Origin: Candidatus Nitronereus thalassa | GTDB taxonomy: Bacteria > Nitrospirota > Nitrospiria > Nitrospirales > UBA8639 | Assembly (NCBI RefSeq): GCF_032191465.1 | Contig: NZ_JAQOUE010000001.1 | Span: 2,759,501-2,823,500 of the forward strand | Reading direction: 5' to 3' | Length of the DNA: 64,000 nt | In this document: positions 7,705 through 58,359 of the stretch, one piece after another | Numbering within the stretch: the stretch's first letter is position 1 | How the letters are laid out: each line of letters starts with the position of its first letter | Program-made: the position numbers and the translations under genes | Notes under the pieces: model-generated | The model's database searches: none | The model's input: only the letters and a program-made list of their open reading frames with translations | What the model was told of the DNA's origin: nothing

Positions 7705-8301
7705 ATGATCACAGCGATTGGAGATGTATTACGGCGATGTTATGAACGAGGGTGGATTACGACGCGAGATGGCAATTGCAGTGTGAAACCAGCTCGGAGC
7801 ACGTATTTATATATCACGCCTTCAGGGTGGAGAAAAACCATTGTGCATCCTGAACATATGGTCAAAATTAAATTAAAAGATGGACAAATGTTTATTCCCG
7901 AGGGTGCCTCGCCTTCCGGCGAATTACATATGCATTATTTGTTGACCAAGGGGTATCCCAAAACTCGGGCGGTGGTTCATGTGCACCCTACCCATGTCGT
8001 TGCGGCCATGTATCGAGGATTTGATTTGCCGAAACTGTGTGAACAGTTTCCCGAGATTCATCGGTATACTCGGGTCGGGGCTTCTGTTCCGTTTCTTCCG
8101 GCCATTAGCACTGAGCTGGGAGATGCAACAGCGGTGGCCTTGGGTGTGACTGAAGCCAATCCCGCGGGGCAATATGATATTGTTGGTCAAGCTAACCATG
8201 GGGTCTGTGCCATGGCGTCAGATCCGTGGTCGGCCTACGAGCACATTGAACGGCTCGATCATATTTGTGAAATTGCTCTGAAAAGTGGGGTGGCGCCTTA
8301 A
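7705..8301 (+). CDS. Class II aldolase/adducin family protein
   Basis: A 198-residue class II aldolase of the L-fuculose/ribulose-phosphate type. It shows the N-terminal TRDGNCSVKP segment (phosphate and substrate loop), ITPSGWRK, the catalytic glutamate and zinc ligand region SGELHMHYLL, and the HVHPTH zinc-binding pair. These enzymes cleave or epimerise small sugar phosphates; methylthioribulose-phosphate dehydratase is a close alternative. A ribosome binding site (GAAGGAACGG) precedes the ATG. No sugar pathway genes are nearby, so the substrate is unknown. Confidence 0.8.
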   Translation: MITAIGDVLRRCYERGWITTRDGNCSVKPARSTYLYITPSGWRKTIVHPEHMVKIKLKDGQMFIPEGASPSGELHMHYLLTKGYPKTRAVVHVHPTHVVAAMYRGFDLPKLCEQFPEIHRYTRVGASVPFLPAISTELGDATAVALGVTEANPAGQYDIVGQANHGVCAMASDPWSAYEHIERLDHICEIALKSGVAP

Positions 8302-30943: not shown

Positions 30944-30971
30944 ACGCCAGATCACAAGGAGCAAAGAAGAT

Positions 30972-31661
30972 ATGGCCCTGAAAGCCTTAATTGTCGATGA
31001 TGAACAGGCCATTGTGGATTTAGTACGTTTCCATCTAGAAAAGGAAGGGATGGCCTGTTTTGAGGCGGCGAATGGCGAAAAGGCACTTCAATTGGCTCGT
31101 GAGCATCGTCCTGACTTGATGGTGCTGGACTTGATGCTTCCAGGAGTCGATGGTCTGGAGATATGCCGACTCTTGCGTCGGGATCAAAACACGGCGTCCA
31201 TCGCGATTATCATGCTCACCGCGAAAGCAGAGGAAGTGGATCGAATCGTGGGATTAGAAATGGGGGCGGATGATTATGTGGTCAAGCCCTTTAGTCCTCG
31301 TGAATTGGTCGCGCGCGTCAAAGCAGTGTTGCGGCGAGGTCAGGTGCCATCGACAGATGTGGTTCAGCGATTGGGTGAGTTGGAAGTAGACGAGGCGAAG
31401 CGTCAGGTTCGCGTGGGGAACGTCCCTGTTGAGTTGACGGTCAAAGAATTTGACTTGTTGTGCGCCTTGATTCGTGCCAAGGGACGAGTCCTGAATCGTG
31501 AGCAAATTTTAGAATCTGTTTGGGGGTATGCGAATGCCGTGGATATTGAATCCCGAACCATTGATGTGCACATTCGGCGGCTTCGTGAAAAGTTGGGTCA
31601 AGAAAGTCAACGTGTGGTGACAGTCAAAGGCGTAGGCTATCGCTTTGAGGTAGAGGGGTAA
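30972..31661 (+). CDS. phoB: Phosphate regulon response regulator
   Basis: A 229-residue OmpR/PhoB-type regulator. The receiver has the acidic pair in LIVDDEQ, the phosphoacceptor Asp in LMVLDLMLPGVDG, LTAKAEE and the conserved Lys in VVKPFSPREL. The C-terminal winged helix contains LTVKEFDLL and RTIDVHIRRLREKLG. The ATG follows AAGGAG. It is two bases ahead of phoR and three genes ahead of pstS, which identifies it as PhoB or PhoP, the activator of phosphate starvation genes. Confidence 0.9.
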   Translation: MALKALIVDDEQAIVDLVRFHLEKEGMACFEAANGEKALQLAREHRPDLMVLDLMLPGVDGLEICRLLRRDQNTASIAIIMLTAKAEEVDRIVGLEMGADDYVVKPFSPRELVARVKAVLRRGQVPSTDVVQRLGELEVDEAKRQVRVGNVPVELTVKEFDLLCALIRAKGRVLNREQILESVWGYANAVDIESRTIDVHIRRLREKLGQESQRVVTVKGVGYRFEVEG

Positions 31662-33497: not shown

Positions 33498-33538
33498 CCT
33501 TTGTTACTTATGAAGGCCTTGTGGGCTGGTCCCCTCAG

Positions 33539-33566
33539 TTAACAGCTTCGTAACATGGCTTTTACC
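33539..33566 (+). promoter_or_regulatory. Pho box of pstS
   Basis: Three hexamers with exact 11-base periodicity: TTAACA (33539-33544), GTAACA (33550-33555), TTTACC (33561-33566). This is the direct-repeat geometry bound by PhoB/PhoP dimers. It ends about 70 bases before the pstS ATG. Confidence 0.72.
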
Positions 33567-33634
33567 CAAAGGAAACATTGAAGGATTAACATTATCAGCC
33601 CCGATAACCAACGGGTGAAATTGGAGGAGGATCG

Positions 33635-34676: not shown

Positions 34677-34719
34677 AAGCCATGCCCGAAGGTTCTTCTT
34701 GGATCGGGCATGGCTTTTT
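34677..34719 (+). terminator. Intraoperonic terminator between pstS and pstC
   Basis: AAGCCATGCCCGA (34677-34689) pairs perfectly with TCGGGCATGGCTT (34704-34716) and is followed by T5. The position after pstS fits partial termination giving excess binding protein over permease. An apparent pstC start at 34699 lies in its loop. Confidence 0.85.
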
Positions 34720-34743
34720 CCCTTTGATCCGCGACATAAAAAA

Positions 34744-37038
34744 ATGAAACCTTTCACTCCTCATGCGGTGTCAATGGGCACAGAAATTCCTCCTACCCCT
34801 TTAAGTTTGTCTCGTCGATCTTCTCGACAACTTCGACGGGTTATCGATTCTCTGGCGACGGTGGTCATTACCGTCGGTGGATTAATGACGATTTTGAGTA
34901 TTTTAGGTATTTTTGCCTATCTCTTTATCGAAGTGGCTCCACTCTTTTATGCGGCTTCGGCAAAAAAGGTCGCCGCTGTCAGTATTAAACCTTTTGAGGT
35001 AGATACCCCGCAGTCTTGGAATCTCGGTGTCGGACTCGATGAATATATGGAGGTGGCCTATGTGGTTCAGGCAACCGGCGTGTCCTTGTATCGCGTGCCC
35101 TCAGGGGAACCCTTTGTGTTGGAATCCATACCCACATTTGAGCCAGGTCAGATTTCTGCCATTGGGCGCTCATTAGGGAAATCTCACATCTTTGGGTTGG
35201 GGACCCGTGAAGGTCAGGTGATTCCGCTGTTTGTCAATTTTCGAATGGCCTTCAATAAGGATCAGCGGAGCATTCATCCAACCGTGACTCTCGGTACGCC
35301 GCTTGAACTGACTCCTCACCCCGAGCGTATTCACCGTGTTGCCTTTCAAGAAACCGAAGAGGGACAAGTTACTGCCGTGCTGACCGACGCCAATCATCTG
35401 TATCTAGCAAAAATCCAGGAAGCCGAAGGGCTTTTTGCCATGGAGGGTGAATCGGAGGTCCTTCATGCTCAGATTAAACATGCGAATGTGTCATCGATTA
35501 CCACTCTCGTTTTGGATAGCATGGGCGAGAATTTGTTAGCGGGTACCCAAGATGGGCACCTGTTGCATTGGGATTTGCGAAACTTCGAAGACCCTCGCCT
35601 CATGGGTTCGTATTCCGTGGGGCATACCATCACGGCTCTTTCGTATTTGATTGGTGATCGATCTATCGTGGTGGGAACAAGTGAAGGTGAGGTCGAGGTG
35701 TGGATGCCGACGATTGATCCGAATATAGGGGGCGATCCCAAGCTTGAGAAAATCAGAGAATTTCCTTCGCATCATAGTGCGATCACGGTAATCTCTCCCT
35801 CACAACGGGATAAAGGGTTTATCACCGGCGATCGTTCAGGAAAATTTTCCCTTCATTATTCGACTTCAGGAGAGACCCTATTGGAAATTGATGACACGGG
35901 GGTTCCTATTGGCGCCCTGATGTTTTCTCCAAAAGCGGATGGCGGAGTGTTCTTGACCCAGAACGGTCAACTGTCTGTGTATCACCTTGATAATCAACAT
36001 CCAGAAGCCACGTTCAGTTCGCTCTTTAGCGAGGTCCTTTATGAAGGGTATCAGGAGGCCTTGCATATTTGGCAATCGACCGGGGGGTCGGATTCCTTTG
36101 AGCCCAAGTTTGGATTATGGCCACTGATGTTTGGAACGTTAAAGGGGACCTTCTATGCCATGATCTTGGCGACCCCCTTGGCTGTGTTGGGTGCTGTGTA
36201 TACCGCGATGTTTATGACTCCGGATCTTCGCTCGGTGGTGAAACCAACGGTCGAGATCATGGCCGCCTTTCCCACCGTGGTCTTAGGATTTTTAGCCGGT
36301 TTATGGTTTGCTCCTCTATTAGAAAAGATCTTTCCCGCCGTCTCGGCTATTTTTATGGTGGTGCCGGTGGCGATAATCCTGGCCTCTTTCGGCTGGCATT
36401 TTTTCCCAACAAAAGGGCAAAAAACATCCGGACAATTCTTAGAGCTGTTGATCCTCCTGCTTCTCATTAGTGCGTCGGTGTGGATCTGCCTTCACTTCAA
36501 TACAGAGATTGAGGCGTGGTTGTATGGATCGGATTATAAACAATGGCTGTCGGACACCTTTGGCGTGGGATATGATCAACGCAATGCGTTGGTCATCGCC
36601 TTTGCCATGGGCATTGCGGTGATCCCAACGATATTTAGTATTTCTGAGGATTCCATCAGTAATGTGCCCCGTCATTTGATAGCTGGATCATTGGCCTTGG
36701 GAGCCACACCTTGGCAGACCCTTTCCAAGTTGGTCATCGTTTCCGCGAGTCCGGGAATTTTTTCTGCCTTGATGATTGGATTAGGCCGGGTGGTCGGAGA
36801 AACGATGATCGTCTTGATGGCGACCGGAAATACACCGTTAATGGACCTTAATCTCTTTAATGGGTTTCGAACGCTCTCAGCGAACATCGCCGTGGAAATG
36901 CCGGAGGCCCCGCATGGGGGAACCTTGTATCGTTTGTTATTTATGGCAGGATTGATTTTGTTTATCTTTACGTCTTTCGTGAATACCATCGCCGAAGTTA
37001 TTCGACAACGTTTACGAGCCAGATATAGCCAATTTTAA
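34744..37038 (+). CDS. pstC: Phosphate ABC importer permease, long form
   Basis: A 764-residue PstC, against about 300 for the short form. After the first membrane segment (about residues 28-52, VVITVGGLMTILSILGIFAY) a periplasmic insertion of about 400 residues contains repeated beta-strand units (ISAIGRSLGKSHIFGLGTRE, LLAGTQDGHLLHWDLRNFED, TITALSYLIGDRSIVVGTSE, ITGDRSGKFSLHYSTSGETL) like a WD40-type propeller. The permease core follows with the EAA loop around LIAGSLALGATPWQT. The insertion could contact PstS or sense something in the periplasm. The start after the terminator is preferred; 34774 is an alternative. Confidence 0.88.
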   Translation: MKPFTPHAVSMGTEIPPTPLSLSRRSSRQLRRVIDSLATVVITVGGLMTILSILGIFAYLFIEVAPLFYAASAKKVAAVSIKPFEVDTPQSWNLGVGLDEYMEVAYVVQATGVSLYRVPSGEPFVLESIPTFEPGQISAIGRSLGKSHIFGLGTREGQVIPLFVNFRMAFNKDQRSIHPTVTLGTPLELTPHPERIHRVAFQETEEGQVTAVLTDANHLYLAKIQEAEGLFAMEGESEVLHAQIKHANVSSITTLVLDSMGENLLAGTQDGHLLHWDLRNFEDPRLMGSYSVGHTITALSYLIGDRSIVVGTSEGEVEVWMPTIDPNIGGDPKLEKIREFPSHHSAITVISPSQRDKGFITGDRSGKFSLHYSTSGETLLEIDDTGVPIGALMFSPKADGGVFLTQNGQLSVYHLDNQHPEATFSSLFSEVLYEGYQEALHIWQSTGGSDSFEPKFGLWPLMFGTLKGTFYAMILATPLAVLGAVYTAMFMTPDLRSVVKPTVEIMAAFPTVVLGFLAGLWFAPLLEKIFPAVSAIFMVVPVAIILASFGWHFFPTKGQKTSGQFLELLILLLLISASVWICLHFNTEIEAWLYGSDYKQWLSDTFGVGYDQRNALVIAFAMGIAVIPTIFSISEDSISNVPRHLIAGSLALGATPWQTLSKLVIVSASPGIFSALMIGLGRVVGETMIVLMATGNTPLMDLNLFNGFRTLSANIAVEMPEAPHGGTLYRLLFMAGLILFIFTSFVNTIAEVIRQRLRARYSQF

Positions 37039-37045
37039 AATTCTT

Positions 37046-38680
37046 ATGCGCGACGCCGTCAATAAATTTTTGAGTTCGGGAACCCTGTTTGTCTGGCTCT
37101 GTGGAGCAGCCGTGGCCATGTCATTATTAATGATAGGGGGAATTCTGGTGCTGATCATGGTCAATGGCCTAGGGTTCTTCTGGCCCCACACCCTGTATGA
37201 AATGACACTAAAGGATGGGAGTCGCCTTCTCGGAGAACTTCAGGGACAAGAGGTAATTCCCAATTCTGCGACACCAGAGAACCCTGAGGGAAAGACTCGC
37301 ATTCGAATGAAAATCGGGAATCGCGATCTCTATGGGTTAGATTTTCAATGGGTTGATGAAGATGACATCGTAGCTCGCTCGGCACCCCAAGACGTCATGG
37401 TATTTGAGCGTCGAGAATGGGGGAATTTTTATGGACGGATTCAACAAGTGATCCATGGTGACACGGTGATGGCCTCGGATAACACGCAAGCCTGGAAGAT
37501 TTTGCCCCCGCTCATTGAAGAGGCAAATCAATTGCATGAAGACATTGATTTTCTTCAGAGAGTGAAAATCGGGGATATTAATCATGACATAGAGCAAGCG
37601 CGTCTTAAGATTCGAGCATTGCAAATTAAAGGCATCAGTGATTCACCAGAAATCACGGACCTTCAAGTCACACTTCACCGTCTTGAACAACAATATCAAC
37701 AACATGTCGAGACCCTTCGCCAGCTTGATGCACGTTTGGCAGACTATACGCTCGTCTTGGTCGATACCAATGGACGAGAGAAGTCTCTTCCTCTTGGGCA
37801 GATTGTGGAGGCGCTCCGTCCCAATGACATGGGGATAGTGCAAAAATGCCTGACGTACCTTCACAACTTTTGGAAGGTGTTGAGCGATGAACCTCGAGAA
37901 GCCAATACCGAAGGGGGAATTTTTCCAGCAATCTTTGGCACGGTGATGATGGTCCTTATCATGAGCATTGCCGTGGTGCCCTTTGGGGTGTTGGCGGCGT
38001 TTTATCTAAAAGAATATGCACGTCAAGGCGCTATCGTGCGAATCGTGCGAATTGCCGTCAACAATCTTGCGGGCGTGCCCTCGATTGTCTTCGGGGTTTT
38101 TGGTCTCGGCTTTTTTGTTTATGCAGTGGGTGGAACTATTGACCAATTGTTTTATCCTGAAGCTTTGCCCAATCCGACGTTTGGAACGGGCGGAATTTTG
38201 TGGGCTTCGCTGACTCTGGCATTAATGACTGTGCCCGTGGTGATTGTGGCAACGGAAGAAAGTTTATCAGCGGTACCCAGAGAATACCGCGAGGGCTCTT
38301 TGGCATTGGGCGCCACAAAGTTTGAAAGCATGTTACGCGTCATTCTCCCCTGTGCCATGCCTGGGATTCTCACGGGTCTGATTTTGGCCGTGGCGCGAGC
38401 CACCGGTGAGGTTGCCCCATTAATGTTGACTGGGGTGGTCAAGCTGGCCCCAGCTTTGCCTTTGGATTTTCATTTTCCCTTTTTGCATTTAGATCGAAAA
38501 TTTATGCATCTTGGGTTTCATATTTATGATGTTGGGTTTCAATCTCCCAACGTGGAGGCGGCAAAACCCATGGTCTACGTTACCACCTTCATTTTGGTGA
38601 TGGTCGTGATTGCATTAAACATCTCTGCGATTGCATTAAGAAACCACATGAGAAAGAAATTTAAAGGTGCAGCGGTCTAA
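37046..38680 (+). CDS. pstA: Phosphate ABC importer permease, long form
   Basis: A 544-residue PstA with about 230 extra residues between the first and second membrane segments. The insertion contains an SM/barrel-like strand set (LKDGSRLLGELQGQEVIP) and a helical, coiled-coil-like region (LRQLDARLADYTLV, DIEQARLKIRALQIKGISDS). The permease core has RIAVNNLAGVPSIVFGVFG and the EAA loop YREGSLALGATKFESMLRVI. It starts seven bases after pstC. Both long forms occur together here, suggesting their periplasmic domains work as a pair. Confidence 0.9.
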   Translation: MRDAVNKFLSSGTLFVWLCGAAVAMSLLMIGGILVLIMVNGLGFFWPHTLYEMTLKDGSRLLGELQGQEVIPNSATPENPEGKTRIRMKIGNRDLYGLDFQWVDEDDIVARSAPQDVMVFERREWGNFYGRIQQVIHGDTVMASDNTQAWKILPPLIEEANQLHEDIDFLQRVKIGDINHDIEQARLKIRALQIKGISDSPEITDLQVTLHRLEQQYQQHVETLRQLDARLADYTLVLVDTNGREKSLPLGQIVEALRPNDMGIVQKCLTYLHNFWKVLSDEPREANTEGGIFPAIFGTVMMVLIMSIAVVPFGVLAAFYLKEYARQGAIVRIVRIAVNNLAGVPSIVFGVFGLGFFVYAVGGTIDQLFYPEALPNPTFGTGGILWASLTLALMTVPVVIVATEESLSAVPREYREGSLALGATKFESMLRVILPCAMPGILTGLILAVARATGEVAPLMLTGVVKLAPALPLDFHFPFLHLDRKFMHLGFHIYDVGFQSPNVEAAKPMVYVTTFILVMVVIALNISAIALRNHMRKKFKGAAV

Positions 38681-44269: not shown

Positions 44270-44497
44270 ACGTGATGTCTCACCGTATATGATCGAATAA
44301 AGGCTGAATTTCGGAAAACAAAAATTATAACACGCTCATTTTTCAGAAAAGTGTGAAGTTTTTGTTGTAAGATGGGTTGTACAAGAAGGAATAAGTAGTA
44401 GAAAATACGTTACTGTGCTCTCGTAAAGATCTATGTTTGCCCTCCTCGTTGGGATTTCACTATTTTAATTAGTTCAATTGAAGGTGCTTTTTTGAAC

Positions 44498-45283
44498 ATG
44501 AACTCATTGGATTTAGAAGCCTTGTGTGATCTTGCCGTCGTCGCAGCGCAAGCGCCTGCTTCCCAAATCGTGCAGTGGTTTGAGGCAGACCATTTATCCG
44601 TTGAGCGAAAAGGCGATGGATCTCCAGTTACGATTGCCGATCGGGAGGCGGAGAGAACCATTCGTCAAATTTTATCTGATCATTCTCTTGCTTCGTCTTT
44701 TGATATTTTAGGGGAAGAGTTTGGCCAAGAAAAACAAGGTGCACGATACAGGTGGTTGATTGATCCGATTGATGGCACACGGTCCTTTGTAAACCGCATT
44801 CCTTTATTTGGGACTATCGTGGCTTTGGAAGATTCTATAGAAAAAAAGGTCCTCGTTGGGGTCATACATCTGCCTGTATTACAGCAAACCTATTCCGCGG
44901 CCCGCGGCTTAGGTGCGCATTGTGATGGCGTGGCACTTTCGGTTGGGCCCTCCATACCCTTAGGTGAGGCGTTCATCGCTACCGGAGATATCGCACAATT
45001 CATCAGCGTGGGATGTGAGAAAACCTATAATACGTTGGCTGAGCATTGTCCGTATTTACGCACGTACACCGATTGCTTTGGTCATGCGCTGGTCGTGAGG
45101 GGGGCGGTTTCGGCCATGCTCGACCCTGGATTGAACCCGTGGGATGCGCTGGCGACCCAGGTGTTAGTCGAAGAAGCTGGTGGGCAAATGATCATGCGGC
45201 CTTCAACGATTTCCAAAAAAATTGATGTCCTCTTTGGCAGTTCAGACACTGTGGAACAATTGAGAACGCTCGTTGAATTTTAA
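44498..45283 (+). CDS. Inositol monophosphatase family phosphatase, possibly histidinol-phosphatase
   Basis: A 261-residue Mg-dependent phosphatase. It has GDGSPVTIADREAE, GEEFGQE (metal Glu), WLIDPIDGTRSFV (the DPIDGT signature) and GLNPWDALATQVLVEEAGG (WD motif). The DGTRSFV variant resembles the HisN-type histidinol-phosphatases more than inositol phosphatases, but this is a judgement from memory of the families. ATG at 44498 is preferred over TTG at 44492. It stands between the polyphosphate genes and the regulator cluster. Confidence 0.82.
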   Translation: MNSLDLEALCDLAVVAAQAPASQIVQWFEADHLSVERKGDGSPVTIADREAERTIRQILSDHSLASSFDILGEEFGQEKQGARYRWLIDPIDGTRSFVNRIPLFGTIVALEDSIEKKVLVGVIHLPVLQQTYSAARGLGAHCDGVALSVGPSIPLGEAFIATGDIAQFISVGCEKTYNTLAEHCPYLRTYTDCFGHALVVRGAVSAMLDPGLNPWDALATQVLVEEAGGQMIMRPSTISKKIDVLFGSSDTVEQLRTLVEF

Positions 45284-45713: not shown

Positions 45714-45785
45714 GATGATTTTCCCAGGAAGTAGAATGGGGCCCTGTGGGGGGCAATCTTATTGAGGGTCTCATTTTAACAAATG

Positions 45786-45813
45786 GTTACATTTTTCTAA
45801 CAGGATTGTCATA
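45786..45813 (+). promoter_or_regulatory. Pho box candidate 4, before the orphan regulator
   Basis: GTTACA (45786-45791), CTAACA (45797-45802) and GTCATA (45808-45813) repeat every 11 bases. TATGTT (45823-45828) lies at the right distance for a -10 of a PhoB-type promoter, so transcription would begin near 45835. Confidence 0.65.
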
Positions 45814-45866
45814 TGGTTCCTCTATGTTTTCCTGTTGTGAGTATACGTGACCCACAGCCCTATACC

Positions 45867-46202
45867 ATGCCCTGCCTTCGTCCCATCGGCATCGATGATG
45901 TTTTGATTGATCCATTTGCCCAGGAAATTCGCACAAAAGGAAAGGCCATAAAACTCACCAAGATTGAATTTCGTTTGCTGTGGATTCTTGGCTCAAATCC
46001 TGATGTGGTGCTTAGCCGTGAGGAAATCTTATGCAAAGTATGGGGAGAAGGAGTTTTTGTAGAACCAAGAACCGTAGATGCTCATATTGCGCGTTTACGT
46101 CGGCTTTTGAGGAACGAAACGGAACTTTTTCCTTCTATTGAAACCGTGTGGGGGATCGGGTACTGTTTTAGAATGAAAAATGGTCAACCTGGGAATCCAT
46201 AA
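45867..46202 (+). CDS. Orphan OmpR/PhoB-type DNA-binding protein without receiver
   Basis: 111 residues comprising only the winged-helix domain: IGIDDVLIDPFAQEIRTKGK, then LTKIEFRLLWIL, LSREEILCKVWGEGVFVEPR, RTVDAHIARLRRLLRNE and the final strand VWGIGYCFRM. No receiver precedes it on this strand. The start at 45813 overlaps the Pho box and would lie before the predicted transcript start, so the ATG at 45867 is chosen. It lies 113 bases upstream of ppx. It could compete with or modulate PhoB at Pho boxes. Confidence 0.8.
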   Translation: MPCLRPIGIDDVLIDPFAQEIRTKGKAIKLTKIEFRLLWILGSNPDVVLSREEILCKVWGEGVFVEPRTVDAHIARLRRLLRNETELFPSIETVWGIGYCFRMKNGQPGNP

Positions 46203-46265
46203 CCTCCTTAAACGACCATTCCAAGTGTTGCACCTCATTATTCTTTGTCCATTGTAAATTTGTGC

Positions 46266-46297
46266 CGGTGAACGCCTGCCTTTTCGTTCGGTGAACG
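46266..46297 (+). promoter_or_regulatory. Direct repeat before ppx
   Basis: CGGTGAACG occurs at 46266-46274 and 46289-46297, 23 bases apart, about two helical turns, just before the ppx start at 46316. This is suitable for binding a dimeric OmpR-type protein on one DNA face. Confidence 0.45.
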
Positions 46298-46315
46298 ATC
46301 AAGAAAGTGTAGACA

Positions 46316-47857
46316 ATGGCTAAACTCGCTGTCATCGATATTGGTACCAATTCCATTCATATGGTTCTTGCAGATATTGAACCGGATGGGTCGTATAAGA
46401 TTGTCGATCGGTTCAAAGACATGACGCGCCTGGGAGATGGAACGTTCCGGCAGAAATGCTTGTCTGATGAGACCATGTCAAAAGGGCTTGAGGTGCTTTG
46501 CAATCTCACGACCCTGGCTCGAAACAAGGGATACTCGAAAATAATCATGACGGCCACCAGTGCCGTGCGAGAAGCCAAGAATGGAGGCGCGTTTATCAAG
46601 GCCGTGGCCGACGCCACTCGCGTTCGTGTGCAAGTCGTGACTGGGCAAGAAGAGGCACGGCTGATTTATTTAGGCATCCGCCATAGTATGGAATTAACGG
46701 ATATTCCTGCCCTGATGGTAGATGTTGGCGGGGGGTCGGTTGAAATCATTGCTGGCACCCGCGATCGTCTCGTCGGAGCGCTCAGTTTGAAACTGGGAGC
46801 TATTCGTTTGAAAGACCAATTTTTTACCAAAGCCCCGCCGACCAAAAGTAAACTACGTGAATGTGCACGCACCCTTGAACATGAACTTCGAGAATCATTG
46901 GAGCGCTTAAAACTCGACGAGCTGGACCGTATCATTGCATCGTCGGGGATGGCAGCCAATTTAGCCGAGATTGTGTATTTACATCGGACTGGTCGCCCTA
47001 TTCCCCAACTCAATCTGTCTACGATCAGTCTAAAAGAAATTCGGATGGTGGAGGAACGATTGGCTAGGAACACGGTCCCGAAACGATTAGAAATTCCTGG
47101 GTTGGATCCTCGTCGAGTGGATACCTTGTTGCCCGCCGTCATGCTGCTCAGAATTCTTCTTGAGCTTACGGGGCAAAAGGATATAACGATCAGTGATAAG
47201 GCCATTCGCGAAGGGCTGATCTACGATTTTATCCAGAAAAATAAAGAGAAGATCCAAATTGAGCAGGAAGTGCCCAACGTTCGACTTCGGAATGTCATCT
47301 CGCTTGCCCGGCGATGTCAATATTCCAAAGCCCACTCACATCACGTAGCGGGCTTAGCGACCTCGTTGTTTGATCAAACACGGACCCTTCATCAATTAGG
47401 CGAGCAGGAACGGGAATGGTTGTCCTATGCCGCCATCCTCCATGATGTGGGATATGTGATTAATCCACGGCAACATCACAAGCATGGATATTATTTGATT
47501 ACGAATAGTGATTTGGCAGGATTTACGTCTGACGAAATTGAAATCATTGCCAATCTGACTCGGTATCATCGGCGGGCCATGCCGGGGACTCGCCATGCGG
47601 GTTATCAATCCCTGTCGTTGTCAGACCAAAAGAAAGTAAGAGTATTAAGCGCTCTGCTTCGAATCGCCGATGGATTGGATCGTAGCCATTTTTCTATTAT
47701 CCGTGACCTTGAGGTACACGTTGGAAAAGCGATTACGATTCGATTGAATGTGTCTGGGGATCCGGAGCTTGAAGTATGGACAGCACAGAATCGTGCTGAT
47801 CTGTTTGAGAAGATTTTTAAACGAAAAGTAAAATTCGTCACAAACGCTGATACATAA
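46316..47857 (+). CDS. ppx: Exopolyphosphatase / guanosine pentaphosphatase family with HD domain
   Basis: A 513-residue Ppx/GppA protein. The N-terminal actin-like fold has VIDIGTNSIHMVLADI, TATSAVREAKNGGAF and VDVGGGSVEIIAG. The C-terminal half is an HD phosphohydrolase-like domain with SHHVAGLATSLF, AAILHDVGY and RYHRR. These enzymes cut phosphate from polyphosphate ends or dephosphorylate pppGpp. The genes ppk1, CYTH-CHAD and ppx lie within 8 kb, so this is most likely the exopolyphosphatase. Confidence 0.93.
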   Translation: MAKLAVIDIGTNSIHMVLADIEPDGSYKIVDRFKDMTRLGDGTFRQKCLSDETMSKGLEVLCNLTTLARNKGYSKIIMTATSAVREAKNGGAFIKAVADATRVRVQVVTGQEEARLIYLGIRHSMELTDIPALMVDVGGGSVEIIAGTRDRLVGALSLKLGAIRLKDQFFTKAPPTKSKLRECARTLEHELRESLERLKLDELDRIIASSGMAANLAEIVYLHRTGRPIPQLNLSTISLKEIRMVEERLARNTVPKRLEIPGLDPRRVDTLLPAVMLLRILLELTGQKDITISDKAIREGLIYDFIQKNKEKIQIEQEVPNVRLRNVISLARRCQYSKAHSHHVAGLATSLFDQTRTLHQLGEQEREWLSYAAILHDVGYVINPRQHHKHGYYLITNSDLAGFTSDEIEIIANLTRYHRRAMPGTRHAGYQSLSLSDQKKVRVLSALLRIADGLDRSHFSIIRDLEVHVGKAITIRLNVSGDPELEVWTAQNRADLFEKIFKRKVKFVTNADT

Positions 47858-48536: not shown

Positions 48537-49052
48537 TCAGCGGGTGGCTTCCACAGGGATGTCGCCCTTTGTGGGTGACCACTGGACCGCTACTACGCGG
48601 ATGATGGCCAGAGCGAGAAGGATACCGCCCAGGATAATCCATTTTTCTTGAGGAGCATCTCGAAACCACATGGAGATGACTTCGGTGAGCATGACCACAA
48701 GAATTGTATCGACGATAAACGTGACCTTGACGCGTCCTTCGGAAAAATAGGTCAAGGTGGTTTTAAAGACTTCGACAATGGCCAATAAGATGAGCGTGTT
48801 GACGATGACTTGCCGTAAGGCAATTTCTAGAGGACTGGAAAAGAGGAGATGAAGCTCCACAAATGTCATGAGTACGCCACCGGCCAAGGCGGTCAAGATC
48901 GTGATGATGAGTAAGCTTAAGACGATCTTGATACCTTGCATCCAAATGTCCGTCATATTGAGGGACAACAGATGCCCTAATGGAGAACGACCATTTGGAT
49001 TCCATGATTGCCCAGAAGCCTGTGTTGATGAGGAGAGAAAGTTAAAAATCAT
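48537..49052 (-). CDS. psiE: PsiE-like membrane protein (phosphate starvation inducible)
   Basis: 171 residues from the ATG at 49052. Four hydrophobic segments (IVLSLLIITILTALAGGVLM, VIVNTLILLAIVEVFKTTLT, VTFIVDTILVVMLTEVISMW, WIILGGILLALAIIRVVAV) match the PsiE family, including the EVFKTTLTYFSEGRVKVTFI core. The function is unknown; in E. coli it is induced by phosphate starvation. It overlaps the CBS gene stop by 11 bases and shares an operon and Pho box with it. Confidence 0.82.
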   Translation of the reverse strand: MIFNFLSSSTQASGQSWNPNGRSPLGHLLSLNMTDIWMQGIKIVLSLLIITILTALAGGVLMTFVELHLLFSSPLEIALRQVIVNTLILLAIVEVFKTTLTYFSEGRVKVTFIVDTILVVMLTEVISMWFRDAPQEKWIILGGILLALAIIRVVAVQWSPTKGDIPVEATR

Positions 49053-49428
49053 CGATGGCCACCGGGTGTAACAGGTCGCGGACGCTAATAATGCCGATAA
49101 TGGCTTCGTGATCATCAGTCACAGCCAAATGCCGGACGTTGGATTGTTCCATGAGGTCGGCGACACCCCAGATGGGTCGATCTTGATTGATGCAAATGAC
49201 CGGAGCACTCATCACGCTTGCGACCGACGTGCTTTCTGGCGAAAGGTTCATGGCCATGACTTTTCGAACGAGGTCGGTTTCGGTCACGATCCCGACAATA
49301 TGATCGTGCTCCTTCACAAACACACTGCCAATTTTTAACACCCGCATCATCATGGCTGCCGAGTAAGCGGTCTCATGACTTTGAACCGAGGTGAGGTCCT
49401 GTTTCATTAACTCTTTGACTTTAAGCAC
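49042..49428 (-). CDS. CBS-domain protein
   Basis: 128 residues with two CBS repeats (SAAMMMRVLKIGSVFVKEHD ... GIVTETDLVRKVM; PIWGVADLMEQSNVRHLAVT ... GIISVRDLL). Such pairs bind adenosyl nucleotides or other ligands and regulate partners. The gene lies between the small ORF and psiE in a Pho-boxed operon. The partner may be PsiE itself. Confidence 0.88.
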   Translation of the reverse strand: MLKVKELMKQDLTSVQSHETAYSAAMMMRVLKIGSVFVKEHDHIVGIVTETDLVRKVMAMNLSPESTSVASVMSAPVICINQDRPIWGVADLMEQSNVRHLAVTDDHEAIIGIISVRDLLHPVAIDDF

Positions 49429-51394: not shown

Positions 51395-52825
51395 TCAGAA
51401 TGAAATATCATATTGGAGACGGAAGCGTTGTTCTGTCAGTTCCCCCCCTGGCTGAGCCAGAGTCAAATGCGAGACGTCAATGGTGATTTTGTTTTGGTGC
51501 CCGGCAATAAACCAATTGACGGCGGAAGTAAATTCCTGATTTTTGTCAGACGCGACTGACACGTTTGGATCTACAAATGCGTATCGAAGGGCGAGTTCGA
51601 GTTCTTCCGGAATAAATGGGATCAGGTAATGAAAGAAGTACCCAATTTGAGTGTAACTGCCCATTAAGTTAGTCTGCATTCCCGTGCCAGAATCTTTTAT
51701 TTGCTTCCAGTGATATTCATGTTGCAAGGAAAATCCTCGATATTTGAATGCGGTTTCCTCAAGCAATTGGTCGACACGATAGCGGCCTCTTCCTGTGGTG
51801 GGAATGGGAAACATGGCTGTTGATATGGTTCCGCCGCCGCTGGAAGAAAATCGGGTAAAATTACTAATATTCGTGGTGGCGCCAAACGAGAGACTACCGG
51901 CCGGACGTTCATGGTATTCGATATCGCTTTGTGAAAATTCGAGATCCCGTCCTATGAAATTCCATTGCAAACGACCCATCCACATCATATTGTCATCATC
52001 GTTATTGCTGGTTCCTCTCCCCGTTCCCGTGAACACTCCGGCGTAATACCACAGATCCAGGATGGTGCCAGGGAACAGGTGCCCGTACAACATGGCCCCT
52101 TGTTGTCGGTCCAATGTAAAGAGCGTGTTGACAATAGAGCGTTCCACAAATTGTTGTTTGCCGGAAGAATCCACTCGCTCGCGGTTGTAATTGATTTTCC
52201 ATTGCCCGATGCGGAGTTGCAGCCATTTAAATTTTTCCAGAGATAGCCGCCAATCGATCAGCCGAGTTCCGCCTCCTGCTCCTGTCGTACCACTTCCTCC
52301 TTCGGCCCAATCAATTTCGAAATAAAATTTGATCCAAGGCCGATATCCATGTCCGCCAACTTTTAACCGGGCGCGGCGAATTTCAAAAGAACTTTCGGGG
52401 CCATCCATGAAGGCCGAGGCGGTCAGCAGGTCACCCCGTTCCGGATAGGAATAGCGGAATTGAAAGCGGTTTTGAATTTGCAGTGCATATTTATTATCGC
52501 GTGATTTGAGTTCAAACCCTTTCGCACCATAGCCAACAATGATGGGAAATTCCTCGAGAAACCGCTTTTCTTCTTCGACTTGCTTTTTCTCCGTTCTTGA
52601 TTTCAGGCGTATCCAATCTTCCTTAGTCAAAAGTCCCTTTTCGTACAACGTATCTGCAAGGTCGCCCTGCAACATCACCTCAGGTGCTCCATCTTCACCA
52701 GTATCGGAAGAGGCATCGGGTAAGGTGCCGACCCCGAGTTTCGAGGAGGGCTCTGCCGCTTTGCTTACGGTAGTGGTGGAGAGGACAAGAAGGCCCGCAA
52801 AGACAAAGCAAGCGTATTTGCACAT
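51395..52825 (-). CDS. Phosphate-selective porin O/P family protein 1
   Basis: A 476-residue outer-membrane protein with a signal peptide (FVFAGLLVLSTTTVSKAAE) and a C-terminal Phe. After a short helical N-terminus (LYEKGLLTKEDWIRLKSRTE) come sixteen-strand type barrel segments: GYRPWIKFYFEIDWAEG, QLRIGQWKINYNRERVDSSG, RYAFVDPNVSVASDKNQEFT. These match OprP/OprO-like porins, which admit phosphate or polyphosphate in Pseudomonas. The lysine-ring residues cannot be judged by eye. A paralogue lies immediately upstream. Confidence 0.85.
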   Translation of the reverse strand: MCKYACFVFAGLLVLSTTTVSKAAEPSSKLGVGTLPDASSDTGEDGAPEVMLQGDLADTLYEKGLLTKEDWIRLKSRTEKKQVEEEKRFLEEFPIIVGYGAKGFELKSRDNKYALQIQNRFQFRYSYPERGDLLTASAFMDGPESSFEIRRARLKVGGHGYRPWIKFYFEIDWAEGGSGTTGAGGGTRLIDWRLSLEKFKWLQLRIGQWKINYNRERVDSSGKQQFVERSIVNTLFTLDRQQGAMLYGHLFPGTILDLWYYAGVFTGTGRGTSNNDDDNMMWMGRLQWNFIGRDLEFSQSDIEYHERPAGSLSFGATTNISNFTRFSSSGGGTISTAMFPIPTTGRGRYRVDQLLEETAFKYRGFSLQHEYHWKQIKDSGTGMQTNLMGSYTQIGYFFHYLIPFIPEELELALRYAFVDPNVSVASDKNQEFTSAVNWFIAGHQNKITIDVSHLTLAQPGGELTEQRFRLQYDISF

Positions 52826-53049: not shown

Positions 53050-54468
53050 TCAGAAAGATACGTCCCACTGCAAGCGGCCACGTTGTTCGGTAATGGCTGC
53101 AGCCATGGGCATATCAAGTGATAAATGGGAGACATCAACGGTAATCTTGTTTCGATGTCCAGCAAAAAACCAGTTGAAAGCGACGGTGTATTCTCGAAGA
53201 GTGTCGTTGGAAGCGAACACATTAGGATCAACGAACGCATATCGAAAGGCTACTTCTAATGGTTTGGGAATTGCTGGTACAAGGTAATGTGGGAAGTAGC
53301 TGGCTTGGGAATAACTGCCCATCAGGTTGGTTTGTGAAGGCACAACGGAAGCGGTTCCCGTGAAGCCCTTTAACCCGACCCCTGCTCCCTGATCATTAAT
53401 TTGTTTCCAGTGAAATTCATGTTGAATGGCCAGTCCACGCCATTTCATGGCAAATTCCTCGACCATACCCTGGGTTTTAAACTGGGAGTCTGCTGCCGTA
53501 CCATCCGATGTAAATGCCCCTCCGATTGATCTTGTCTGTACTAATGTTCCGCATCCGCCGGAAGACCATCTGGTACATTTCCCAACGTTGGTATAAGCGC
53601 CAAAGGCCAAACTGGCGGCCGGCTGTTCATGATATTTTAAATCACTTTGTTTCCATGCCAACTCACGACCAAAAATGTTCCATTGGATGCGAGCCATATA
53701 CATCAATTTGTCGTCATCGTTCGCTTCTCCTCGGCCCGATCCCGTAAACACACCAACATAATAGTTCACATCATAAATTTTTCCAGGAAAGAGCCGGCCC
53801 ATAACTAAGACGCCGACTTGGCGATCGATGGTAAAGACGGAATTCACGATCGATCGTTCAACAAACGTCTGTTTTCCAGAGGAATCGACCCGCTCACGAT
53901 TGTAATTGATCTTCCATTGTCCCACTCGGATGGTAAAGGCCTTGTACTTGGCCAAGTCGATACGCCAATCGATCACGCGTGTCGAGCCCGCCGAACCTCC
54001 TGAGTTCGCCGTGGACTGCAAATCGACTTCGAAATAATATTTGATCCATGGTTGATACCCATGTCCCCCAATTTTCATTCGGACTCGACGTAGTTCAAAT
54101 GTGGCTTCGGGGTTGTCATTAAAATCACCGAACGTATCTTCATCACTTCTGTCTGGATAAGTAAAGCGTCCTTGAAAACGCCATTGCAGCGACGTTTGCC
54201 ATTTCCCATCTTCGGTTTTAAATCCAAATCCTTTTTTCGACCAAAAGGGGATGGTGGGCGTATCCTTGCTTTTTTTCTGCTCGCCGTACCCAGCGGCCTG
54301 TTTTTCTCGATCAGCTTCGATTCGAATCCAGTCTTCCTTGCTGATCACGCCTTTTTCGCGCAGGACTTCGGTGAGTACGTCCCCTCCGAAGGCCGGAACC
54401 GTCATGGCGCTTGACATAATAAAACTGCTCAAGGCCATGGCCCCGATCCAGCGATGTTGCATGTTCAT
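53050..54468 (-). CDS. Phosphate-selective porin O/P family protein 2
   Basis: 472 residues, paralogous to porin 1 along its whole length: TEVLREKGVISKEDWIRIEA, GHGYQPWIKYYFEVDLQ, IRVGQWKINYNRERVDSSGK, RQVGVLVMGRLFPGKIYDVN and a terminal WDVSF with C-terminal Phe. The signal peptide is IGAMALSSFIMSSAMTVPAFG. Both copies keep the NYNRERVDSSGKQ block exactly, so they probably arose by duplication and diverged mainly in loops. It lies next to the second pst operon. Confidence 0.85.
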   Translation of the reverse strand: MNMQHRWIGAMALSSFIMSSAMTVPAFGGDVLTEVLREKGVISKEDWIRIEADREKQAAGYGEQKKSKDTPTIPFWSKKGFGFKTEDGKWQTSLQWRFQGRFTYPDRSDEDTFGDFNDNPEATFELRRVRMKIGGHGYQPWIKYYFEVDLQSTANSGGSAGSTRVIDWRIDLAKYKAFTIRVGQWKINYNRERVDSSGKQTFVERSIVNSVFTIDRQVGVLVMGRLFPGKIYDVNYYVGVFTGSGRGEANDDDKLMYMARIQWNIFGRELAWKQSDLKYHEQPAASLAFGAYTNVGKCTRWSSGGCGTLVQTRSIGGAFTSDGTAADSQFKTQGMVEEFAMKWRGLAIQHEFHWKQINDQGAGVGLKGFTGTASVVPSQTNLMGSYSQASYFPHYLVPAIPKPLEVAFRYAFVDPNVFASNDTLREYTVAFNWFFAGHRNKITVDVSHLSLDMPMAAAITEQRGRLQWDVSF

Positions 54469-54681: not shown

Positions 54682-55521
54682 TTACCCTCTGACCCCGTCG
54701 ATGTATTCCTGTGTCAGACGATGTTGGGGGTGGTGAAAAAAATCCCCTGTTGGTCTGGCTTCTATCAAAGTTCCCGAATGACCTTGAATCCAGAACAGTG
54801 CCACCTGGTCGGCGATTCGTCTGGCCTGGGCTAGGTTATGGGTCACGAGGATAATGGTGTATTGATCTCGTAGATGGGTAATCAGATCTTCCACAATTCC
54901 GCTTGATAGAGGGTCCAGAGCGCTGCAGGGTTCATCCATGAGCAGGACCTCAGGAGAAAGAATTAACGCGCGCGCGATACACAAGCGCTGTTGTTGCCCG
55001 CCAGATAACGCGAGTGCTGATGAGTCCAGTCGATCGCAAACTTCATCCCAAAGCCCAACGCGAGTCAGTGATTCTTGAACTTTTGCATCTATGATGCCGG
55101 GATCTCCAACGCCATGTTCCTTCAAAGGGAACGTCAGGTTTTTTCGAATGGAAAAAGGAAATGGATTGGGATTCTGAAAAATCATGCCGATTCGACGGCG
55201 CAATTGAAGCACGTCAGTCTCGGAGGAACATACATCTATATTCCCAAACCGAATAGATCCATCGACATGACAATGTGGCACAAGGTCTGTGAGACGATTA
55301 AGGCAAGTGAGGAAACTTGTTTTTCCACTTCCCGATGGACCGACCAGTGCGGTGATCTTCATTGACTGGATAGAAAGAGATACATTCCCAAGTGCTTGGT
55401 GGGAGCCATACTTCACGCTAAGGTTTTCCGTGGAAATGCAGGGGGACGAAGACTGTCCGGCCATGAGTGGTGGCGGAAGATCAGAGGGGCGTGGAGAGGG
55501 CATCGTGCTGTGTTGTTTCAT
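54682..55521 (-). CDS. pstB: Phosphate ABC importer ATPase, second copy
   Basis: A 279-residue PstB with Walker [38 protein letters not shown] and [13 protein letters not shown]. The Walker A reads GKTS where the first copy has GKST; it remains a valid P-loop. The ATG at 55521 overlaps the pstA stop as ATGA. It is the last gene of arsR-pstS-pstC-pstA-pstB; no phoU follows, in contrast to the first operon. Confidence 0.92.
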   Translation of the reverse strand: MKQHSTMPSPRPSDLPPPLMAGQSSSPCISTENLSVKYGSHQALGNVSLSIQSMKITALVGPSGSGKTSFLTCLNRLTDLVPHCHVDGSIRFGNIDVCSSETDVLQLRRRIGMIFQNPNPFPFSIRKNLTFPLKEHGVGDPGIIDAKVQESLTRVGLWDEVCDRLDSSALALSGGQQQRLCIARALILSPEVLLMDEPCSALDPLSSGIVEDLITHLRDQYTIILVTHNLAQARRIADQVALFWIQGHSGTLIEARPTGDFFHHPQHRLTQEYIDGVRG

Positions 55522-56372
55522 GCGGAGAGTACTCTCTTGGAAGACCATCGGTAGCCGATAATCTTGGCTCCAGCGTTGATAACGAACAAGAGCGTGATTA
55601 ACACCAATGCCGAGGCATAGGCGTTGGCATTGCCACCAGGGACATTCATGGATAAATCATAAATATGAATGGAGAGCGCGCGACCCGAGTCCCACAGAGA
55701 TTCAGGCATGCGATCCACATAGCCGCTGGTAAAGATTAGCGCAGCAGTTTCTGCGATGGCCCGGCCCAGACCAAGAATGAATCCAGCCAATAAGGCAGGC
55801 ATGGCCGCAGGAATCAGTATTGAAATGAGAATGGAAGTTTGAGAAAGACCTAATGCGGCTGCCGACAGTCGATAGTCAACGGGCAAGGCGCGGAATCCTT
55901 CTTCGGTCGAACGAATCAGCATCGGAAGCACCATGCAGGCCAAGGTGAGCCCTCCCGACACAATGGAAAACCCCAATCCAAGCGTGACACAAAAAAACGC
56001 ATTTCCAAATAAGCCAAACACAATAGAGGGTATTCCGGCTAACACATCAAGACTGCGACGAATGAGATTGGTCATCCATCCAAATTGATGGTTCACTTCC
56101 GAAAGGAGAATAGCGGTACCTAAGCCAATCGGAAGAGCGATCATCATGCACACCACAAGAATGAGCATGGTTGAAACGAGAATTGGCGCAATGCCTCCCT
56201 CGCGTCCGGCGTTCCTGGGGGAAGAAGTAAAAAATTCCCAAGACAGACCGGAAAGACCATGCGCGACGATATCGTCTATCAACCATAGGAACATGCCCGT
56301 CAGTAATAGGGCTACTATCCGGGAAAGGTTCAGCGCCACTGTATCCTGAATAGCTTGTGGTGGGTTAGGCAT
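55518..56372 (-). CDS. pstA: Phosphate ABC importer permease PstA, short form, second copy
   Basis: A 284-residue PstA with about six membrane segments, ILVSTMLILVVCMMIALPIG and the EAA-type loop DYRLSAAALGLSQTSI. It lacks the large periplasmic insertion of the first PstA (544 residues) and so resembles the ordinary family. It overlaps both neighbours by a few bases. Confidence 0.92.
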   Translation of the reverse strand: MPNPPQAIQDTVALNLSRIVALLLTGMFLWLIDDIVAHGLSGLSWEFFTSSPRNAGREGGIAPILVSTMLILVVCMMIALPIGLGTAILLSEVNHQFGWMTNLIRRSLDVLAGIPSIVFGLFGNAFFCVTLGLGFSIVSGGLTLACMVLPMLIRSTEEGFRALPVDYRLSAAALGLSQTSILISILIPAAMPALLAGFILGLGRAIAETAALIFTSGYVDRMPESLWDSGRALSIHIYDLSMNVPGGNANAYASALVLITLLFVINAGAKIIGYRWSSKRVLSA

Positions 56373-57225
56373 GGTGTGGTGCTCGGTTGTACCAATGGAC
56401 TGCGGTCATCAAGACTAGGACCATCAAGAGCAGCGCCAATCCACTCACAAACAAAGCGGATCGATGATCATCCACCGCATAAGCCATTTCCAAGGCCATG
56501 TTCGCGGTCAGTGTCCGAATGGGGTCGAAGATTGACGAGGGGAGCTGCGCGACATTTCCGCATACCATCAGCACCGCCATGGTTTCTCCAAGCGCGCGGG
56601 CTGTGGCTAATAGTCCGGCTGTCCATAATCCTGATTTTGCCGAGGGAATGACCACGCGACGTAGAGTGCTCCATCGCCCCATGCCTAAAGCCGCCGCCCC
56701 ATGAATATACTCGGTGGGCACCTGCGCCAAACTCGATTGAACAAGCAAACTCATGGTGGGAAGAATCATCAGCGCGAGGATAAAAATTCCGGCAAGCAGA
56801 CTTGCTCCTGGTGGGTGCCATTGGTTGATCAGTGGGACAAGAACTACCAATCCCCAAAAGCCAAACACGACGGATGGAATTCCGGCGAGGAGTTCAATAA
56901 ATCGAGAGTACAGTGCGGCGATTAAAGGCGGAGCATACCATTGGCAAAAGAGGGCCGAAAAGAATCCGAGCGGTCCTGCAAGAACAATGGCCCCGACGGT
57001 GATAAGCACAGTGCCTATGATCATGGGAACGAGGTTGAAAGAGCCTTCTCCTGGATGCCAAGACGAATCGAAGGCAAATCGTTCGATTCCTATGTGTTGC
57101 AGAGCTGGCACCGATTCCATAATCACAAACATGACAATGAAGACAAGGATAAGCCCAGCGAGGCCGGCACAAACCCAAAGGGCCCCATGCAGGAACCGGT
57201 CAGGATGCCAATGAAATGAAGGCAT
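56365..57225 (-). CDS. pstC: Phosphate ABC importer permease PstC, short form, second copy
   Basis: A 286-residue PstC from the ATG at 57225 (294 from 57249). It has GPLGFFSALFCQWYAPPLIA, LLAGIPSVVFGFWGLVVLVP and the EAA loop YIHGAAALGMGRWSTLRRVV. Without the propeller-like insertion it matches the standard PstC. Its start overlaps the end of pstS by 26 or 50 bases, a sign of tight coupling. Confidence 0.9.
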   Translation of the reverse strand: MPSFHWHPDRFLHGALWVCAGLAGLILVFIVMFVIMESVPALQHIGIERFAFDSSWHPGEGSFNLVPMIIGTVLITVGAIVLAGPLGFFSALFCQWYAPPLIAALYSRFIELLAGIPSVVFGFWGLVVLVPLINQWHPPGASLLAGIFILALMILPTMSLLVQSSLAQVPTEYIHGAAALGMGRWSTLRRVVIPSAKSGLWTAGLLATARALGETMAVLMVCGNVAQLPSSIFDPIRTLTANMALEMAYAVDDHRSALFVSGLALLLMVLVLMTAVHWYNRAPHHA

Positions 57226-58036
57226 GCTGAGTGACCAAGTGTTGAACATGAGGCGATCTGGAATAACTAATAAACGTTTGAGCCAGGGCGTGGGGATGTT
57301 TGGTGGTCACCAACGTCAGAGGGCGGGACAACGGAAAGATCCCATTCTGAACTGTGGTTAAAGACGCAGGGATCGAATCGAGCTGAAGAAGTTTTATCGG
57401 GACCCCAACCGACGCATCGTAGGTGGCAGCGCCGATCGAGACATAGGCAATTGCCAGTGGATTCCCTGCCACGGTTTTAATCCCATGTTCGTTATCTCCA
57501 ATAATGACGTCAGCCTTGATGGCGGAATTGATGAGCTGGAAATGTTGTAAAAATATTTCAAGTGTCGCCCGGCCTTCCGCCTTATTCACGACAACAATGG
57601 GCGCATCTTGGCCTCCGATTGTTTTCCAGTCCCTGATCTTTCCCGTGTAAATCTCCTTTACTTGTTGGGTCGTCAGATTGGTGACAGGGTTGTCGGTGTG
57701 AACAATCAGCCCAATGCCATCTTGGGCAATGGTTATCCCGACAAGATCGACGGTTTCCTGTTCATACAGGGTGCGGGAGGCCATGCCTATGTGGGCGATT
57801 CCTGATCGTGCGTCCGCTACGCCGCGCGAAGACCCACCCGTTTGGACATCAATACGAATTCCCGGATGTTTCGTTTCAAATTGTTTGCCAATATCCGCAA
57901 TTAAGGGGGCTAGGGTACTGGACCCCGTGATCACGAGTTTTTGGAGAGGCGGATTGGCCGCAGGAGATTCCTGGCATCCGGTACTCGTGAAGGCCAGGGT
58001 TAGTAGGAGGGTGATGTGAAACATTAGGGCTATCAT
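57200..58036 (-). CDS. pstS: Phosphate-binding lipoprotein, second copy
   Basis: A 278-residue PstS. The signal ends in lipobox STGC, so it is tethered to the membrane. Ligand motifs are GSSTLAPLIADIGKQFETKH, QTGGSSRGVADARSGIAHIG and VVNKAEGRATLEIFL. The ATG at 58036 overlaps the arsR stop as ATGA; an earlier start at 58084 would lie within arsR. It is only distantly similar to the first PstS, so the two systems probably differ in affinity or in discrimination between phosphate and arsenate. Confidence 0.88.
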   Translation of the reverse strand: MIALMFHITLLLTLAFTSTGCQESPAANPPLQKLVITGSSTLAPLIADIGKQFETKHPGIRIDVQTGGSSRGVADARSGIAHIGMASRTLYEQETVDLVGITIAQDGIGLIVHTDNPVTNLTTQQVKEIYTGKIRDWKTIGGQDAPIVVVNKAEGRATLEIFLQHFQLINSAIKADVIIGDNEHGIKTVAGNPLAIAYVSIGAATYDASVGVPIKLLQLDSIPASLTTVQNGIFPLSRPLTLVTTKHPHALAQTFISYSRSPHVQHLVTQHAFISLAS

Positions 58037-58359
58037 GTGCGGTTCCCCTTTTTTGAAGAGGAAGAAAATGAGAGTTGGCAACATCCGAGGTCGAGAGCTT
58101 TTCCCGTGGTGGCGTTTCCGACGTTCGAGGAGAGTTGATAAAGGACAGCCTTTCCTTTTCGAAGGGCATCTACGAGCCCGGCTTCTCGAAGCAATGCCAG
58201 GTGGTGGGAAAGCAGGCTTTGTTCCACCTCAAGAATGGATACGAGTTCTCCCACACGACGCGGTTGGTCCATTAAGGATTCAAGGACAGCTAGCCGGGTG
58301 GGGTCGGCCAAAAGTTTGAGTTTGTCCACACAAGACGGGGAGATGGATGCAGGTTTCAT
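58033..58359 (-). CDS. arsR: ArsR-family repressor heading the second pst operon
   Basis: A 108-residue winged-helix regulator: LKLLADPTRLAVLESLMDQP, RRVGELVSILEVEQSLLSHH and REAGLVDALRKGKAVLYQL, the SmtB/ArsR pattern. The metal-site ELCVC motif of arsenic sensors is absent in helix 3. Cysteines at residue 10 and a Cys-Cys pair near the C-terminus (LDLGCCQLSF) could form another thiol site. It is translationally coupled to pstS, so it almost certainly controls this operon, probably sensing a ligand other than free phosphate. Confidence 0.88.
   Translation of the reverse strand: MKPASISPSCVDKLKLLADPTRLAVLESLMDQPRRVGELVSILEVEQSLLSHHLALLREAGLVDALRKGKAVLYQLSSNVGNATTGKALDLGCCQLSFSSSSKKGNRT

Follow-up and report, generated by a model that had tools for sequence, protein, structure and literature searches.

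Two-component systems are normally read as a kinase together with a switchable regulator. SaeR, for example, is a full-length, kinase-controlled regulator, and we know of no link between SaeR-type domains and phosphate; AfsR of Streptomyces is a much larger protein, of the SARP type, and to our knowledge has not been described in a Pho-boxed unit with ppx. Within the OmpR/PhoB class, ChxR and HP1043 have a DNA-binding domain that works without phosphorylation while still retaining a receiver-like domain, as far as the sections of the papers available to us describe them (PMC3960148, PMC8345958). The available parts of two further papers present AfsR, which is controlled by Ser/Thr kinases, as a second regulator beside PhoP at the Pho boxes of pstS and phoRP (PMC4415409, PMC6988585), and the first of these also treats the PhoB effector domain, once freed of its receiver, as a constitutive DNA binder (PMC4415409). 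Here, we describe a gene, referred to below as the orphan, whose product has no receiver-like domain at all and seems to represent an OmpR/PhoB variant that has not been described before; no such protein was described among the matches listed by a literature search at the level of titles and abstracts, mostly without subscription journals.

A PhoB-type winged helix without a receiver

The window, by which we mean the whole 64-kb stretch of DNA that was analysed, carries a phosphate locus comprising phoB-phoR, pstSCAB-phoU, ppk, a CYTH-CHAD gene, a CysQ-like gene, the orphan, ppx, sixA, psiE, two porins and a second pst set; those of these names that have no Pfam support (ppk, sixA, phoR and pst, for instance) are our presumptive assignments from the sequence. 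The orphan (45813-46202, plus strand) is followed by ppx (46316-47857, plus strand), an exopolyphosphatase gene with Pfam matches for Ppx-GppA, domain III and HD, and has upstream a CysQ-like gene of the inositol-monophosphatase family (44492-45283, plus strand; Pfam). The PhoB of the locus (30897-31661, plus strand), its presumed activator, has TIGR02154 as its best NCBIfam model over the full length. The PstC- and PstA-like proteins (34699-38680) are unusually long (779 and 544 aa) and contain large extra regions, and a second pstBACS-like set (54682-58084, minus strand) lies behind tandem phosphate-porin genes (51395-52825 and 53050-54468).

The 129-aa orphan frame has PF00486 (Trans_reg_C) as its sole Pfam match, at residues 43-119 (E 5.6e-24), and the score of 84.4 bits against a curated cut-off of 26.2 identifies it as a winged-helix domain; all 17 aligned family members likewise carry PF00486 and no further Pfam family. 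In a structure model (mean pLDDT 79.6, with block values of 77-92 across residues 21-120), the predicted fold of beta-sheet, three helices and beta-hairpin wing matches the structures of SaeR, PhoB and YycF, the modelled match to the PhoB entries 1gxq and 1gxp having a TM of 0.83-0.88 by target length. SaeR-type domains are the closest solved structures by both sequence and fold and share the same wing tryptophan (TVWGxGY). The best NCBIfam match is again TIGR02154, in its effector-domain portion (profile positions 132-225), with 78.8 bits against a family cut-off of 296.2, a cut-off that is strict, since even the PhoB of the window, at 258.8 bits, does not reach it.

A receiver with a phosphorylatable Asp is absent from both the protein and its upstream flanks, so that the orphan does not qualify as a response regulator, and of the five PF00486 genes that its genome contains, it alone has a frame (133 aa vs 230-257) that could not accommodate a receiver. 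When the upstream flanks of 17 members, the window's own included, were searched for receiver remnants, three short matches were all that was found (best E 0.074; two of them wrongly oriented), in a search whose positive controls gave 1e-94 and 1e-70. The gene family is under purifying selection: of 24 within-group pairs, 14 had a measurable dS and gave omega values of 0.095-0.307 (the other ten being saturated), and on these values we reject a simple decay product. The earlier note had taken the gene for a PhoB-like regulator lacking its receiver, which is borne out by the solitary PF00486 domain, the receiver-free protein and flanks, and the purifying selection. A frameshifted full-length regulator in relatives, which the note had named as the contrary possibility, was looked for and not seen, and is ruled out by the flank search together with the 18 receiverless members.

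There are two candidate starts, ATG 45813 (129 aa) and ATG 45867 (111 aa). The former lies only 8 bp past the Pho box, so that a Pho-type transcript would be expected to begin downstream of it, and in the alignment the proteins of relatives start close to the winged-helix domain; for these two reasons, ATG 45867 is probably the likelier start.

The orphan is like PhoB in its Pho-box control and phosphate neighbours; it differs in lacking the receiver, in belonging to its own clade, and in residues that matter for DNA binding. In E. coli PhoB, according to the part of the source available to us, Arg219 and Arg201 make contacts with bases, Thr194 and Val197 with thymines, T194 and R201 counting as DNA contacts, while W184, G185, V190, E177 and E191 are on the RNA polymerase side and D192G abolishes activation (PMC3973317). 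The window orphan keeps T194 and R201 and has A197 and W219 at the other base-contact positions, of which 197 differs among orphan genera. It also keeps the equivalents of W184, G185, V190, E177 and E191, and the first three are invariant in the 17-member alignment. The D192 equivalent (Pro in the window orphan) is never Asp in the 18 members. At the position of Arg219, in the wing, all 18 have Trp, as does just one of 16 full-length regulators of the order; at that of Arg200 all 18 have a small residue (Ala, Val or Ser; Ala in the window copy). Because both arginines have been lost throughout, the orphans may read another sequence.

Pho boxes before the orphan and before ppx

The Pho box of the orphan (45774-45804, plus strand) is made up of the half-sites TTAAC, TTACA and TAACA, the latter two 11 bp apart and TTAAC 10 bp ahead. 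Its matrix match at 45785-45804 scores 13.7 bits, which ranks fourth over both strands of the window, was reached in 0.7% of upstream-region shuffles, and is weaker than the genome's own pstS box (the reference boxes before pstS, 33538-33568, plus strand, score 23.1 and 14.1 bits). The matrix was built without iteration from 38 different sites in the pstS and porin2 promoters of relatives, with the window's own genome excluded; it replaced a first, iterative matrix of 134 sites that was looser and had absorbed half-registers. As that matrix gave the orphan box 7.8 bits and rank 22, the result is sensitive to the choice of training sites. The second-best match in the window (7725-7744, minus strand, 15.0 bits) is upstream of a PPK2 gene (6651-7526).

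Across genomes, a Pho box of at least 8 bits precedes 9 of 18 orphans vs 5 of 54 control genes (Fisher p 0.0006), at a threshold that recovers 29 of 30 pstS upstreams, most of these in the training set; by family, the orphan boxes divide into 7/11 in the window's own family and 2/7 elsewhere. Of the five controls that exceed 8 bits, four are upstreams of CBS and PsiE genes, which are probably true Pho genes, and removal of the seven such controls leaves 9/18 vs 1/47. In the window itself, a PsiE-family gene overlaps a CBS-domain gene (48537-49115 and 49042-49428), with Pho-like sites upstream in some relatives, so that both are probably further Pho genes. Three strict half-sites were found in 7 of the 12 ppx-linked upstreams read, decayed ones included, and two in the rest, among them the window's own; in ppx-linked relatives the half-sites step by 11 bp and are conserved before the gene in most. 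Among the 18 members, G242 and G206 have no Pho box near the gene, and G310 has only a weaker three-part array farther upstream. That the orphan stands under a Pho box, as had been suggested, is thus upheld by the fourth-best site of the window and its conservation in most ppx-linked relatives.

The 113-bp gap between orphan and ppx (46203-46315, plus strand) contains no predicted terminator, and its counterpart in G316 is only about 30 bp long. Where the orphan is present, it stands between the Pho box and ppx. In four genomes of genus g2 without the orphan, a Pho box lies directly before ppx, at most 150 bp away (G173, 16.0 bits; G229, 17.3; G295, 11.0; G278, 8.8). These amount to 4 of 11 orphan-less g2 genomes and 4 of 22 ppx upstreams without an intact orphan, a set in which the other 18 are unboxed and which does not include G308 and G314, whose upstreams are too short, or four of the decayed copies. 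These four suggest that in part of the family ppx is a Pho target in its own right, and because the gap is terminator-free and can be as short as in G316, PhoB could drive orphan and ppx as one unit; ppx is probably co-transcribed with the orphan. Most simply, then, the two genes would form one Pho-induced transcription unit, and no relay would be required to reach ppx.

Distribution and descent of the family

A 17-member profile run against 235 genomes of the order returned 18 members at 129.5-159.4 bits, with G323, from outside the profile, still scoring 144, and the next best in the order reached at most 101.7 bits among the matches listed, best first. Among 395 genomes drawn from the phylum, a single further match was listed at 1e-31, a full-length regulator of 243 aa (109.6 bits). 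The members are found in 11 of 48 genomes of the window's own family and in 7 of the order's other 187. Without exception, the 18 have phosphorus-related or porin-like genes beside them. Receiverless homologues next to ppx, a check proposed in the earlier note, were indeed found, since all 11 members in the window's family directly precede ppx, usually with the CysQ-like gene upstream. Six members in another family lie directly before one porin-like gene, 130-253 bp away, with pst nearby and psiE in several, and the 18th adjoins GDPD (glycerophosphodiesterase) and PhoX genes. Of these six porin-like copies, that of G246 alone scores above the Porin_O_P cut-off (27 vs 20.9 bits); in the remaining five Pfam gives no match, yet they are 66-85% identical to it.

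In a 65-row tree, the 18 members form one clade with support of 97/96; this tree dropped 22 rows picked after the first tree, namely an Elusimicrobia pair, four other long rows and 16 near-duplicates. In the 87-row tree, they are interrupted by that long-branch pair (fork 69/88), which leaves them nearly one clade (two changes), and they are monophyletic in 36% of bootstrap trees. Outside the order, 44 loci were found, of which 40 matched again on a rerun (rows L075-L078 gave no match and are not among the 40); they encode full-length regulators, many adjoining PhoR or pst genes, with the exception of L046, whose 161-aa frame reaches the edge of the fetched stretch. By sequence and synteny, then, the orphans are a small family of receiverless PhoB-type proteins tied to phosphate genes. 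The gene is missing from G125, the one same-genus relative whose ppx could be read, and from the g2 genomes whose ppx locus was read, and decayed copies stand before ppx in five genomes of genus g5 (G191, G252, G306, G311 and G322, with G306 judged by eye); its absence from G125 and its decay in g5 mark it as dispensable.

Possible modes of action

We favour, with a probability of roughly 0.55, the reading that the orphan is a stand-alone PhoB-type DNA-binding domain of the Pho regulon, co-transcribed with ppx, that would act as a phosphorylation-independent second tier at Pho-type 11-bp repeats. Under phosphate limitation, PhoB would bind at 45774-45804 and turn on orphan and ppx as one unit, the arrangement being conserved and the transcription presumed. 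As there is no receiver for PhoR to phosphorylate, the activity of the orphan would be set by its amount, which would make it a slow second tier acting only once the Pho response is under way. It would most likely bind Pho-type 11-bp direct repeats, those of its own promoter first, with altered contacts, and would either prolong or damp the transcription that PhoB drives at whichever gene is linked to it (ppx in the window, a porin-like gene in other relatives). Pho-box control and synteny are supported by the genome comparisons, and the DNA targets are what we infer. Several points count against this reading: in 9 of 18 members the Pho box stays below 8 bits, both arginines are gone from the whole family, position 197 varies between genera, and the gene is dispensable. 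More tentatively, and at somewhat less than even odds, the whole family, with its wing Trp and small residue 200, may be a phosphorylation-blind Pho second tier in one order, induced by PhoB and resetting the promoters of linked ppx or porin genes, so as to provide a starvation memory or shut-off set by amount rather than by PhoR.

Two other views of the protein's targets are possible, each of them clearly less probable than the second tier. The orphan may be a damping competitor, competition at Pho boxes being the other role that the earlier note had proposed, which occupies these boxes without productive contact with RNA polymerase and so limits the Pho response; the tandem half-sites in its own promoter and the lack of Asp at the D192 position in all 18 members fit such a role, as does the competition between AfsR and PhoP at Pho boxes in Streptomyces, so far as the accessible parts of those reports show it (PMC6988585, PMC4415409). 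However, full-length regulators mostly lack this Asp too (2 of 69 have it), and the invariant equivalents of W184, G185 and V190 are what would be expected of an activator. Alternatively, and with as much doubt, the orphan could have its own operator elsewhere in the genome, Trp219 and the small residue 200 conferring a new specificity and the Pho box merely timing expression. The pairing of the two residues in 18/18 members vs a Trp in 1/16 full-length regulators of the order is in line with this, but the constant phosphorus-related or porin-like neighbours suggest local action, and no shared non-Pho motif was noticed in an inspection short of a genome-wide motif search.

The relay set out in the earlier note, in which PhoB turns on the orphan and the orphan then binds a pair of CGGTGAACG words (46266-46297, plus strand) to govern a separate ppx promoter, is improbable. 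The pair itself is real: CGGTGAACG occurs exactly at 46266 and 46289 with no other copy in the window, the exact spaced pair is unique in the genome, and a small inverted repeat, CGTTC-GGT-GAACG, lies around the second copy. The pair is not clearly beyond chance, however: repeats of this class (9 bp or longer, within 40 bp) number 24 in the window, with 14 of 566 tiles of 113 bp holding one, and it is absent from every relative's orphan-ppx gap that was read, conservation here being judged beyond the closest relatives (the same-genus G125 is without the orphan and G305 is 64% complete). Because of the 24 like repeats and the pair's absence from relatives' gaps, we give it little weight: it is probably not functional, and on the repeat counts and lack of conservation we reject it as an operator. 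Its 23-bp spacing is also off the 11-bp Pho-type register, and with ppx directly Pho-boxed in some orphan-less g2 relatives and the gap terminator-free, a relay is not needed. Less probable still is that the orphan is an inert remnant of a duplicated PhoB that shed its receiver: its patchy presence and the decayed g5 copies would suit such an origin, but the gene is under purifying selection, its open frames are intact in 18 genomes, and its clade stands apart from the PhoBs of the same family.

If the second-tier reading is true, a conserved, switchless, Pho-boxed output domain located next to genes for polyphosphate and phosphate uptake would give phosphate control an in-built feed-forward or feedback element, and the orphan a small test case for the function of a DNA-binding domain after loss of its switch. 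In five of the six porin-linked loci, a second Pho-like element lies between orphan and porin (16.5 bits in G337, 14.7 in G413 and 6.4-6.6 in three others). Of the 12 porin-bearing genomes of genus g8 that lack the orphan, 11 have a box of at least 8 bits before their single porin copy. Three orphan-bearing g8 genomes, G246, G141 and G351 (loci L282-L284 and L297-L299), have two porin copies, with the Pho-like element at the orphan-linked one and no Pho box at the second (one of these upstreams being only 246 bp). A feed-forward loop would be possible in the porin-linked relatives. Next to a second porin in another locus (L149, 13776-14570) is an OmpR-type regulator of 264 aa that has the DNA-binding domain and no Pfam receiver, so that its receiver looks degenerate; such regulators are also neighbours of porins in genus g8.
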